Positions 26,504 to 62,163 of a stretch of 64,000 nt of DNA are shown in pieces. Both the position numbers and the translations under genes were made by a program. Source of the DNA: Pedobacter sp. PACM 27299 (GTDB taxonomy: Bacteria; Bacteroidota; Bacteroidia; Sphingobacteriales; Sphingobacteriaceae); the NCBI RefSeq assembly GCF_001412655.1, contig NZ_CP012996.1, positions 558,001 through 622,000 on the forward strand. The letters run 5' to 3'. Below the pieces are notes generated by a model, which was not told the DNA's origin, searched no databases, and worked only from the letters and a program-made list of their open reading frames with translations. Numbering within the stretch: the first letter of the stretch is position 1; the number at the start of each line of letters is the position of its first letter.

Positions 26504-26944
26504 TTAACAAGAAATTTTGTTCACTCTGTTCTCATGTCTGCCACCTTCAAATGCAGTATTTAAAAAGGTAGTGGTCATTTCTTTTGCCAATTCTTCAGAA
26601 ACAAACCTTGCTGGAATACACAATACATTCGCATTGTTATGTACCCTTGCCAGCGATGCAATCTCGTTTAGCCAGCAAATGGCTGCACGGATATGCTGGT
26701 GTTTATTGGCAGTAATGGCAACACCATTTGCGCTGCCGCACACTAGAATTCCAAAAGTATATTCCTGACTTTCCACGGCCAATGCCACAGGATGAGCAAA
26801 ATCCGGGTAGTCAACAGATTGTGTAGAATGGGTTCCGAAATCTTTGACCTCATAGTCGCCAAGAAAAGACTTTAGCAATTCTTTGTATTCAAAACCGGCA
26901 TGGTCGGCGCCGATTGCAATTTTCATTTTTGGGGCTGTTGACAT
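26504..26944 (-). CDS. rpiB: Ribose 5-phosphate isomerase B
   Basis: RpiB interconverts ribose 5-phosphate and ribulose 5-phosphate in the pentose phosphate pathway. The sequence shows IGADHAGFEYKE at the N-terminus, the catalytic-cysteine loop VCGSANGVAITANKH, and the family C-terminal region (HNNANVLCIPARFV, GGRHENRVNKI). Start choice is uncertain: ATG at 26944 gives MSTAPKMKIAIGADHAG, while ATG at 26926 starts directly at MKIAIG as in most RpiB proteins. It sits 21 bases after tatC and 20 before the peptidase. Confidence 0.93.
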   Translation of the reverse strand: MSTAPKMKIAIGADHAGFEYKELLKSFLGDYEVKDFGTHSTQSVDYPDFAHPVALAVESQEYTFGILVCGSANGVAITANKHQHIRAAICWLNEIASLARVHNNANVLCIPARFVSEELAKEMTTTFLNTAFEGGRHENRVNKISC

Positions 26945-26965
26945 CTTCAAAAATATATAGTTTGG

Positions 26966-51170: not shown

Positions 51171-51290
51171 TTTTTTATATCTCCGGGTAAGGCCTGGGTA
51201 AAAGATCACCGGTTAGGAATGTCCTGTCGGTTACGGTTTTACACACAGTTAAAATGCTTATTGAAAAGTCCGGTATCGGGTCGACTTTAA

Positions 51291-51396
51291 CTTATCTTTC
51301 GGGTACCGATGGTCCGGTTCCGGTAGAATGTAGCACCTTGTAAGCACAGGTTGCTAAGACATCGCAGGGTCTAATCCCTCCGTCTTTCTCTATAAG
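51291..51396 (-). promoter_or_regulatory. SAM-I (S-box) riboswitch upstream of metH
   Basis: On the minus strand the element begins CTTATAGAG (51396) and ends GAAAGATAAG (51291), closing P1 as CTTAT/ATAAG. Inside are the S-box core segments GGAGGGA, TTAGCAACC, AAGGTGCTA (P3 pairs AACCT/AAGGT) and a P4 stem TACCG/CGGTA. This is the class I SAM aptamer, which represses methionine genes when SAM is abundant. The 120 bases between aptamer and metH contain no clear intrinsic terminator, so the output may be at translation or through a structure I could not resolve. Confidence 0.93.
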
Positions 51397-51401
51397 CTCT
51401 G

Positions 51402-58615: not shown

Positions 58616-58691
<76 letters not shown>

Positions 58692-58731
58692 AAATTGATT
58701 CGCTAATTGTAAAATTAGTGGCAGTCAAAAT

Positions 58732-58803
58732 GGCCCGTTCGTCTAGGGGTGAGGACGCCAGATTTTCATTCTGGTAACAGGGGTTCGATTCCCCTACGGG
58801 CTA
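58732..58803 (+). tRNA. tRNA-Glu (TTC), copy 1
   Basis: A 72-base tRNA; acceptor GGCCCGT/ACGGGCT, anticodon loop TTTTCAT (TTC) in stem CCAGA/TCTGG, T arm AGGGG TTCGATT CCCCT. CCA is not encoded. It differs from the other two Glu copies in the D loop (AGGGGTG versus ACCGGTT) and the variable region. Confidence 0.93.
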
Positions 58804-58805
58804 CG

Positions 58806-58829
58806 ATCCTCCTTACGTGTAAGGAGGAT
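58806..58829 (+). other. Hairpin after tRNA-Glu copy 1
   Basis: ATCCTCCTTAC (58806-58816) pairs perfectly with GTAAGGAGGAT (58819-58829) around two bases. No T-tract follows. It occupies the same place as the terminator after copy 3 and shares the CTTAC/GTAAG centre. Confidence 0.55.
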
Positions 58830-58873
58830 ATTAATAAACTTGACTACAGAGGTAGGATAGTAATCACATAGAG

Positions 58874-58949
<76 letters not shown>

Positions 58950-58988
58950 AAACAGGTTCGTCAACGCAAGTTGAAGGCAACCTTAAAT

Positions 58989-59060
58989 GGCCCGTTCGTC
59001 TACCGGTTAGGACGCCAGATTTTCATTCTGGAAATAGGGGTTCGATTCCCCTACGGGCTA
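58989..59060 (+). tRNA. tRNA-Glu (TTC), copy 2
   Basis: A 72-base tRNA-Glu with the same acceptor, anticodon and T arms as copy 1 but D loop ACCGGTT and variable region AAATA. No encoded CCA. Confidence 0.93.
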
Positions 59061-59062
59061 CA

Positions 59063-59089
59063 ATCTTCCTTTACTATGTAAAGAAAGAT
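59063..59089 (+). other. Hairpin after tRNA-Glu copy 2
   Basis: ATCTT-C-CTTTAC (59063-59074) pairs with GTAAAG-A-AAGAT (59078-59089), leaving one internal C/A mismatch. No T-tract. It resembles the hairpin after copy 1 and the terminator after copy 3. Confidence 0.5.
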
Positions 59090-59130
59090 CATTAACTTTA
59101 ACACGTAGGTGTTGAAGCAGTAACATAGAG

Positions 59131-59206
<76 letters not shown>

Positions 59207-59245
59207 AAACGGGTTCGTCAACGTAAGTTGAAGGCAACCTTAAAT

Positions 59246-59317
59246 GGCCCGTTCGTCTACCGGTTAGGACGCCAGATTTTCATTCTGGAAATAGGGGTTC
59301 GATTCCCCTACGGGCTA
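59246..59317 (+). tRNA. tRNA-Glu (TTC), copy 3
   Basis: Identical to tRNA-Glu copy 2. It is followed by the only hairpin of the three with a T-tract. Confidence 0.93.
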
Positions 59318-60276: not shown

Positions 60277-60290
60277 TAACATACCCCATA

Positions 60291-60321
60291 AAAGCTGCGG
60301 AAATTATTTTTTCGCAGCTTT
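60291..60321 (+). terminator. Weak terminator-like hairpin after the lipoprotein gene
   Basis: AAAGCTGCG (60291-60299) pairs with CGCAGCTTT (60313-60321) around a 13-base T-rich loop. The tail is CTTG rather than a run of T, so termination strength is doubtful. From 60322 to 60656 no gene or clear signal is seen. Confidence 0.5.
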
Positions 60322-60656
60322 CTTGTGAAATGATAATTTTGTAAACAGGACACTGGCGACTGTTTTGAAATTAATTATGATGAAGTAAACACTTCTTTGA
60401 GCGCTGTGTTGAATTTCAATGCAGCGATTTATTAGCAATTCATTCCTTTTTTTAAAATCTGGTCATTCATCGGATTTATTCGGATTCGCTCTTCTTCTTT
60501 TAAAACGAGCCCCATAAATTAGTTGTTTTTTTCTCTAAATCCACAATTATTCTGACAACAATATCGCTTATAATCCTCATAATAGGTCATTAAGCAGGGT
60601 ATTGGGGGAATTTAAAACTAATTTCAAATAAATTCTATTAAATTAGTAGACTTTAT

Positions 60657-60664
60657 TATCTTTG
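60657..60664 (+). promoter_or_regulatory. -7 element (TATCTTTG) for the candidate RNA
   Basis: TATCTTTG is the same 8-mer as in the tRNA cluster promoter. The -33 position is not TTTG. Transcription would start at about 60669-60671, where the first helix of the RNA begins. Confidence 0.5.
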
Positions 60665-60669
60665 AACTC

Positions 60670-60785
60670 AATAAGCATTAAGAATGTGATTCTCAGTTCG
60701 TCCGGACTGTTGCTTAAAAATTAGATGTTTGGTTAGATCTAAGTTTTGTTTGGTTAAAAGCCAGGTTGGATGACCTGGCTTTTTC
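60670..60785 (+). ncRNA. Candidate structured RNA: three-way junction, repeated linker motif, terminator
   Basis: P1 TAAGCA/TGCTTA (60672-60677 with 60711-60716) encloses P2 AGAAT/ATTCT (60681-60685 with 60689-60693) and P3 CAGTTC/GGACTG (60694-60699 with 60704-60709, one wobble). A 39-base linker carries TGTTTGGTTA twice (60726-60735 and 60747-60756, 21 bases apart). A terminator closes it: AGCCAGGT/ACCTGGCT (60759-60766 with 60773-60780) with flanking A and T tracts (five T to 60784). No ORF is present. It may be a trans-acting small RNA or a leader controlling the YeiH-family gene 92 bases downstream. I do not recognise it as a known family. Confidence 0.55.
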
Positions 60786-60876
60786 ATTGTCCGGGCCCCT
60801 AGCTTTCAGCTCAAAAGGATGAATCATAAAGAAATTAATTCTTAATTTACGACACACAAATAAATGAACCTAATCA

Positions 60877-62163
60877 ATGACCAAAATTTCAACCAACACC
60901 AACAAACTCTTAATTCATGAAGACTGGGCGGTAGTGATACTCGGATCCCTTGTTATCCTAAGTAGTCTTTTCTTTTTCTTATTGCCGATCCCGGTTTTCA
61001 AATGGGATAGCCTAGCCAATTTAAGCGACAAGATTTTCCATATGGAAAACTTAACCGCTATTTTTATCCAGTTTGTATTTATTACAGTGATTGGCGCGGT
61101 AGGTGCTTTCATTATGGGTAAATCCGTAAAAAACTTTTTAATGGGCTTTCCGGTAGTGTATGTGCTCACCATCATTGCCTTGCTGATTGCCGGGAGTTCC
61201 AGCATGCGCGCACTGAATCTGGAAGCTGTAATTTTTAGTTTGATGATTGGCCTGGCCATCAGCAACTTCTTTAAACTGCCGCAATGGTTCAAATCAGCCC
61301 TGTCTACCGAGCTTTTTGTGAAAATCGGATTGGTACTATTGGGGACTACCGTGATCTTTGCAGATATTTTAAAGGCCGGGTCTTTAGGCTTGATTCAAGC
61401 TTTAGTAGTCGTTATCTCCGTATGGTATTTTGCTTTCTGGCTTTGTAAGAAGTTAAAAGTAGATGATGAACTGACCATGATGATTTCCAGTGCAGTTTCT
61501 ATATGCGGGGTTTCTGCCGCAATAGCAACCTCTGGCGCAATCAAAGGAGATTCCAAAAAACTCTCGTATGTGATTTCTATGGTATTGATCACTGCCATTC
61601 CAATGATGATTTTTATGCCTTACATCGCACATTATTTCTCCTTTCCACAAGCCGTAACAGGTGCTTGGCTGGGTGGAAGTATTGATACTTCCGGTGCAGT
61701 AGTAGCTTCCGGAACTTTAGTAGGGGAAGAGGCTTTGAAAATCAGCACAATTGTGAAGTTTTCCCAAAATGTATTGCTTGGGATTGCCGCTTTTGCCATC
61801 AGTATTTACTGGTCTTATACCAACCATAAAGATGAAAATGGAGAAAGAGTAAGGCCAACAGTAGGGGTGATCTGGGAACGCTTTCCTAAGTTCGTACTGG
61901 GCTTTATCGGCGCTTCTTTATTGTTCTCTTTTTTCTTGCCGCAAGAGATGATTTCCAATGTGAAAGACAGCTTGAAAAATTTACAGGGTGCCTGGTTTGC
62001 ATTGGCATTTACCAGTATTGGTTTAGAGACTAATTTCAAGGATTTATTCGGTAATCAAAGCAAGAAACCTTTGTATGCTTTTTTGCTGGCACAGCTGTTT
62101 AACGTGATCATTACATTGATTATCGCATTTTATTTGTTTGGCAACACGGAGGTCTTTGCTTAA
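60877..62163 (+). CDS. YeiH-family putative sulfate exporter / transporter
   Basis: A 428-residue polytopic membrane protein of the YeiH (UPF0324) family, often called putative sulfate exporter; the substrate is not proven for this branch. Ten or so membrane helices are predicted. Family motifs include SSMRALNLEAVIFSLMIGL, LFVKIGLVLLGTTVIF, SICGVSAAIATSGAIKG, GAWLGGSIDTSGAVVASG and the C-terminal AFTSIGLETNFKDL. It is preceded by the candidate structured RNA. Divergent codon use was not noted. Confidence 0.85.
   Translation: MTKISTNTNKLLIHEDWAVVILGSLVILSSLFFFLLPIPVFKWDSLANLSDKIFHMENLTAIFIQFVFITVIGAVGAFIMGKSVKNFLMGFPVVYVLTIIALLIAGSSSMRALNLEAVIFSLMIGLAISNFFKLPQWFKSALSTELFVKIGLVLLGTTVIFADILKAGSLGLIQALVVVISVWYFAFWLCKKLKVDDELTMMISSAVSICGVSAAIATSGAIKGDSKKLSYVISMVLITAIPMMIFMPYIAHYFSFPQAVTGAWLGGSIDTSGAVVASGTLVGEEALKISTIVKFSQNVLLGIAAFAISIYWSYTNHKDENGERVRPTVGVIWERFPKFVLGFIGASLLFSFFLPQEMISNVKDSLKNLQGAWFALAFTSIGLETNFKDLFGNQSKKPLYAFLLAQLFNVIITLIIAFYLFGNTEVFA

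Follow-up and report, generated by a model that had tools for sequence, protein, structure and literature searches.

A predicted small RNA of Pedobacter with a core that relatives also carry as a tRNA-Cys tail, probably tied to cysteine and sulfur supply

Three described systems come closest to the locus reported here. The FopS/GibS RNAs of Bacteroides are terminator-bearing small RNAs that form a multicopy family with a common seed, in bacteria that have RRM proteins and no Hfq, and they count carbohydrate genes among their targets; the Bacteroides RRM protein RbpB binds FopS RNAs, and FopS, which is present in Rfam, is laid out as a single-stranded 5' stretch plus a terminator (PMC11697453). 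In E. coli the glyW-cysT-leuZ pre-tRNA releases 3' ETS-leuZ from its 3' part, a sponge RNA that acts on other small RNAs (PMC8383071). The CymR and IscR regulons, governed by regulators of the Rrf2 family, place an Rrf2 gene by siroheme or sulfite-reductase genes and a palindromic box before sulfur genes.

The RNA studied here, from a soil bacterium of the genus Pedobacter, resembles all three. With FopS/GibS it has in common the terminator, a multicopy family with a proposed common seed, putative carbohydrate-gene targets and a genome in which two RRM proteins but no Hfq (PF17209) were found; unlike them it comes from another bacterial family, would be of tRNA-Cys origin and is not built on a single-stranded 5' stretch. 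The Rfam searches reported no match to FopS or any other family for it or for two related RNAs of the same genome (L163 and L164, below). An origin like that of 3' ETS-leuZ is proposed for 34 of its 46 copies, but the Pedobacter core follows tRNA-Cys itself and also exists detached from any tRNA, as a gene with a promoter of its own. Its promoter box and the neighbourhood of the linked Rrf2 gene recall CymR and IscR, although the Rrf2 protein scores below both equivalog cut-offs and the putative operator is common to a small RNA and a tRNA gene. Since the core is common with a tRNA-Cys tail and the box also stands before sulfur-metabolism genes, the RNA is probably regulatory and tied to cysteine or sulfur supply, which makes it a candidate for the small-RNA branch of a sulfur regulon, in a member of the Bacteroidota whose genome yielded no Hfq. 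A literature search of titles and abstract openings returned no description of it.

The locus and its fold

Near the end of the window (the whole stretch of 64,000 nucleotides that was analysed) lies a 600-base gap between listed genes, 60277-60876. An earlier note, made from the sequence alone, had described here a -7 box, a three-way junction, a repeated linker motif and a terminator, and each lies where it was described: the box TATCTTTG at 60657-60664, the repeat TGTTTGGTTA at 60726-60735 and 60747-60756 with a spacing of 21 bases, and a 116-nt RNA (60670-60785) that folds into a junction of 6, 5 and 6 bp, a linker and a 12-bp terminator stem with U5. The Bacteroidota -7 consensus is TAnnTTTG. 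The features of the locus are as follows.

60635..60649, + strand: palindromic promoter box CTATTAAATTAGTAG, a likely Rrf2-type operator (comparison and two exact genome copies)
60657..60664, + strand: -7 box TATCTTTG (sequence)
60670..60785, + strand: predicted small RNA of ~116 nt (fold z -2.76 and comparative evidence)
60672..60716, + strand: three-way junction of the free-standing form (fold and comparison); the tRNA-Cys form has a small variable hairpin instead
60720..60751, + strand: conserved 32-nt core (88.6% mean pairwise identity, 46 loci)
60727..60736, + strand: loop GUUUGGUUAG, proposed seed (8 of 10 positions at least 0.9 unpaired; complement enriched upstream of starts)
60743..60756, + strand: U/G-rich linker with the second UGUUUGGUUA (exact second copy in the yeiH clade only, 10 of 46)
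60756..60783, + strand: terminator hairpin with GGAU loop (fold; terminator survey)
60877..62163, + strand: yeiH-family transporter gene (PF03601, 179 bits)

Read from sequence only, the unit thus has its own promoter and a Rho-independent terminator inside a gene-free gap, as a small RNA gene should. The same gap holds an 11-bp terminator-like inverted repeat at window positions 60402-60426 (+), 230 bases 5' of the RNA promoter.

The fold of the whole RNA reaches -32.2 kcal/mol, a value at least equalled by 3 of 200 dinucleotide shuffles, while the junction by itself is weaker (z -1.72; equalled by 12 of 200). When the junction was aligned across ten relatives (9 distinct rows), 95.3% of its cells paired and its covariation score was matched by 1 of 500 column shuffles. 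The expectation of conserved pairing in relatives was borne out in part: helix 3 carries compensatory both-side changes at two pairs, but part of the rows break two of the helix 1 pairs, and helix 2, being invariant, is silent for or against pairing. The junction is present as described and was seen in these ten close relatives only. The terminator was missed by a simple terminator scan because its U run begins within the stem; our own terminator finder lists it. Among 69 terminator-like structures in 464 kb a GGAT apical loop occurs once, in the RNA's own terminator (a second one flagged by the survey script has its GG as stem bases), so terminators in this genome do not generally end in a GGAU loop, and that idea was rejected.

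The earlier note could recall no matching RNA family, and Rfam agrees: between 60277 and 60880 nothing reached gathering scores, the best sub-threshold match having 18.5 bits against a gathering score of 70, and the sub-threshold matches at the locus are at chance level. No riboswitch family was among the matches, and riboswitch identity, for which no positive evidence emerged, was rejected on this ground.

A conserved core and its two carriers

When 59 genomes, the own one among them, were searched at the DNA level, relatives matched the linker and terminator rather than the junction; the best-conserved part is not the junction but the 32-nt core with the GGAU-loop terminator. An exact scan of the named genomes for TTAGATCTAAGTTTTGTTT returned 37 stretches, 32 with the core-terminator unit (31 named Pedobacter and one Sphingobacteriales MAG) and five chance matches without it. 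Relatives were then searched with a covariance model, R1, built from 31 sequences: 119 of 145 congeneric genomes matched at E<=0.01 and 46 of them at 75 bits or more, leaving 99 of the 145 Pedobacter with no match at 75 bits. In a 301-genome sample of the family, own genus included, R1 matches outside the genus all stayed below 40 bits.

Over the 46 loci, mean pairwise identity is 88.6% in the core, 81.5% in the terminator, 41% in the 37 nt upstream and 19% in the downstream DNA; the value for the core is somewhat inflated, since the R1 training sequences came from many of the searched genomes and were partly exact-pattern finds. The locus finder used for the count required a TTAGATC core plus GGAT (46 of 46 passed). 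TTAGATCTAA is a palindrome. The core loop reads GUUUGGUUAG in 31 of the 46 loci and UUUUGGUUAG in 14. As to the duplicated binding sites that had been proposed, an exact second TGTTTGGTTA is present in 10 of the 46 loci, all of the yeiH clade, but elsewhere only the copy in the hairpin loop is kept, and tandem UGUUUGGUUA was rejected as a general functional unit.

Two arrangements of the core were found. In 34 of the 46 genomes (20 + 11 + 3) it forms the 3' trailer of a tRNA-Cys(GCA) gene, and in the other 12 it is free-standing, ten times before yeiH and twice elsewhere; P. ginsengisoli is an example of the trailer form and P. polysacchareus of the free-standing one. The window locus, with no tRNA upstream within the unit, belongs to the second group, so that the trailer position (3' ETS type) applies to the 34 relatives only. 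Ten free-standing genomes, the own one and nine located through named loci, were checked for the corresponding tRNA-Cys gene: all ten have it with no core behind it, and in eight of them a short hairpin terminator directly follows the tRNA. Trailers have a hairpin of variable sequence 5' of the core, which folds at -2 kcal/mol or below in 33 of 34; counting distinct trailers, 27 of 28 bear it, against 10.0 expected from shuffles. In the free-standing form of the yeiH clade the three-way junction takes the place of this hairpin. Either carrier therefore fits a common plan of one or more 5' hairpins, core hairpin, linker and GGAU terminator, and core hairpin, linker and GGAU-loop terminator are, as judged from sequence, kept as one unit in both arrangements. 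The comparison argues strongly for this anatomy of the core and its two carriers.

The core also appears to have relatives. Among 40 second-tier matches that were fetched, many look like short RNAs that combine UUUGGUU-like loops with a U/G-rich linker and a terminator of the GGAU type, and several carry their own -7 box. Three R1 matches at E<=0.01 lie in the own genome. Two short RNA-like sequences there, L164 (G000:C1:5323463-5323550, -) and L163 (G000:C1:1456875-1456961, +), have the UUUGGUU motif, a GGAU-type terminator and a -7-like box, and RNAs of the L164 type recur in many Pedobacter among the fetched matches.

A tentative reading of these data, to which we give somewhat less than an even chance, is that a cysteine-responsive small RNA changed its carrier from a tRNA-Cys tail to a gene of its own in a minority of species, belongs to a larger Pedobacter paralogue set, and links sulfur supply, tRNA-Cys supply and the translation of carbohydrate genes. 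Most core-bearing Pedobacter would have kept the tRNA-Cys tail, with the detached gene settling mostly beside a gene for a sulfite/sulfate exporter; the tRNA would have lost the core while the detached gene kept promoter box, core and terminator; and the UUUGGUU loops and GGAU terminators would mark the paralogous RNAs. Close relatives with the core attached or detached behind the same promoter box would then offer a natural experiment on the origin of small RNAs from tRNA trailers.

The promoter box and its link to sulfur genes

A palindrome near CTAYTRAWTYARTAG stands at an almost constant spacing from the -7 box in all 34 tRNA-Cys-1 promoters, with 0-3 mismatches of 15 (shuffle frequency 0.03 or less in 31 of the 34), and is free of mismatches in 11 of 11 free-standing promoters, the twelfth contig stopping short of the promoter; its consensus was drawn partly from these same promoters. 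The box has two exact copies in the own genome. It is found there before tRNA-Cys-1, before a gene for an iscS/NifS-like cysteine desulfurase, beyond which, 1.9 kb on and past one opposite-strand gene, starts a sulfite reductase-siroheme-cysH-cysD cluster (cysD by reading) and before a gene for uroporphyrinogen methyltransferase. Immediately preceding this last copy is an Rrf2 gene, which begins beyond the window, 4.6 kb downstream of where yeiH ends. Further copies precede a TonB-receptor-like locus and thioredoxin-like genes (names by reading). At one locus, L247, two copies 53 bases apart (near G000:C1:2888781 and 2888834) lie upstream of a receptor-like gene. A second YeiH-family gene (PF03601; L241:2470-3402, +), which has a LysR-type regulator gene as its neighbour, precedes the iscS-like gene by 5.8 kb.

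The arrangement recurs in relatives. Of 29 loci with the orthologous Rrf2 gene, 12 have box and -7 element behind it, where shuffles predict 0.09; these are 10 of the 24 Pedobacter, counting the own genome, and 2 of the 5 other genomes. No box was found behind the gene at the remaining 17 of the 29. The Rrf2-linked box is followed by a methyltransferase or sulfite reductase gene in the ten Pedobacter; one distant genome has a two-gene unit there, the second gene being cysK-like (names from translations). Six Pedobacter have a close homologue of the iscS-like gene, and in four of them it is likewise preceded by box and -7 element. Genome-wide there is no excess at two mismatches (47/47 matches versus 79/76 for the reversed control), and a weight matrix of the box rises above shuffles at top scores only; a genome-wide excess was accordingly discarded as an argument, and the case for the box rests on promoter position.

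The earlier note had hinted at sulfur conditions, and the box now ties the RNA to sulfur genes: as in a regulon, it is common to the promoters of these genes and linked to an Rrf2 gene. The encoded protein was assigned to Rrf2 by PF02082; its best equivalog is CymR (81 bits, cut-off 195), followed by IscR (61.4, cut-off 207.55), both below cut-off, and it has four cysteines in its C-terminal half, so the protein might respond to cysteine, to Fe-S or to redox state. We therefore name a CymR/IscR-like Rrf2 protein as the putative regulator acting on the box with moderate confidence.

Candidate targets and the competing explanations

The exact complement of the exposed loop has 16 copies in the genome, versus 38 for a reversed control, and one of the 16 is the RNA gene itself. 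Of the 15 others, seven are found no more than 60 nt ahead of an ORF start, with 6 genes concerned. Composition-matched 10-mers fall upstream of starts in 117 of 2883 cases (4.1%, 864-kb sample), and against this background the complement is enriched (6/14, p 1e-5; strict count 4/15, p 0.003, leaving out a sigma gene with a GTG start and an 81-aa frame). The 8-mer CTAACCAA, antisense to the core, is upstream of starts in 5 of 20 occurrences and ranks second of 273 permutations, though about 150th of 3265 in an overall 8-mer ranking dominated by A-rich 8-mers. The genes behind the sites encode a GH16 protein, an esterase, a GH3 protein, an ECF sigma factor, an rpiB-like protein (by reading; in the window, 26504-26950) and a sugar-symporter-like short frame, and CTAACCAAAC lies at the start regions of the GH16, GH3 and ECF sigma genes. 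The proposed targets are not sulfur genes. The sugar-symporter-like start, at L304:1220-1462 (-), is the 81-aa frame and overlaps a second frame of 359 aa.

Seven candidate duplexes with the window core were compared with 200 shuffled cores. Two beat all 200, with -26.3 kcal/mol for the GH16 gene and -24.2 kcal/mol for the leader of an amino-acid permease; the other five did not. By eye, pairing of the core with the yeiH start is weak. Relatives offered a weak test of seed enrichment, which was rejected as an argument: CTAACCAA ranked 56th of 278 permutations with the RNAs' own antisense strands included, and with these set aside 4 of 25 contexts were upstream of starts (p 0.002), some antisense copies remaining and two of the four apparently being one gene in two species. 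Taken together, the own-genome data are suggestive of pairing at translation starts.

Our preferred reading, towards which we lean by a modest degree, is that the RNA, some 116 nt long, acts in trans as part of a cysteine/sulfur regulon and is made alone here or from a tRNA-Cys precursor in relatives. An Rrf2-type repressor resembling CymR or IscR would release the promoter at cysteine or sulfur shortage; the RNA would be made directly at its own locus and, in relatives, be cut from the tRNA-Cys precursor; and its exposed loop GUUUGGUUAG would pair with CUAACCAAAC near start codons and lower translation, of carbohydrate-use and sigma-factor genes among others. Among the ten species of the yeiH clade, the exporter may additionally be expressed when transcription runs through the terminator.

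This last step overlaps with a rival account. The earlier note had raised a riboswitch-type leader for the transporter; as a cis-acting leader, the structured RNA and its terminator would form an attenuator or riboswitch setting read-through into yeiH. The gene belongs to the YeiH family by PF03601, its TIGR00698 score of 96.9 bits being below the cut-off of 232.6, and would fit a sulfur regulon; the RNA lies on its strand, 92 nt 5' of it. Linkage to yeiH orthologues was found at 10 of the 46 loci, and in all ten (gaps of 27-93 nt) no TAnnTTTG box stands between terminator and gene, so that read-through into yeiH is plausible and the RNA may, in this clade, also be the leader of such a transcript. 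As a full account, a leader is nevertheless improbable: 36 of the 46 copies do not adjoin yeiH and keep core and terminator all the same, which favours a small RNA, and an unsystematic look found no alternative terminator/antiterminator pairing. A riboswitch-type leader in particular is not supported, with no riboswitch match in Rfam and a junction seen in ten close relatives only; the leader keeps a narrow foothold through the box-free gaps.

The loops can also be read as protein sites. The RNA and its paralogues might titrate an RNA-binding protein, for example an RRM protein, through the UUUGGUU and GGAU loops, which are conserved in core and terminator and common to the second-tier RNAs, in a genome with two RRM proteins and no Hfq. 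We consider such a decoy unlikely, as it does not predict the enrichment of the loop complement upstream of starts. The position of 34 of the 46 copies behind tRNA-Cys would likewise suit a passive terminator or processing tail, stranded in some genomes and with no role in trans, but this is very improbable: the free-standing copies keep promoter, core and terminator over ten species, their 5' domain varies while its pairing is kept, and in each of the ten such genomes that were checked tRNA-Cys-1 manages with no core behind it.

Other RNAs were seen in the window. A SAM riboswitch (RF00162, 61.9 bits) lies at 51289-51398 (-) before a metH-like gene, a methionine synthase as read from its start, and six tRNA matches with near-equal scores (61.8-62.4 bits) are clustered at 58616-59317 (+).
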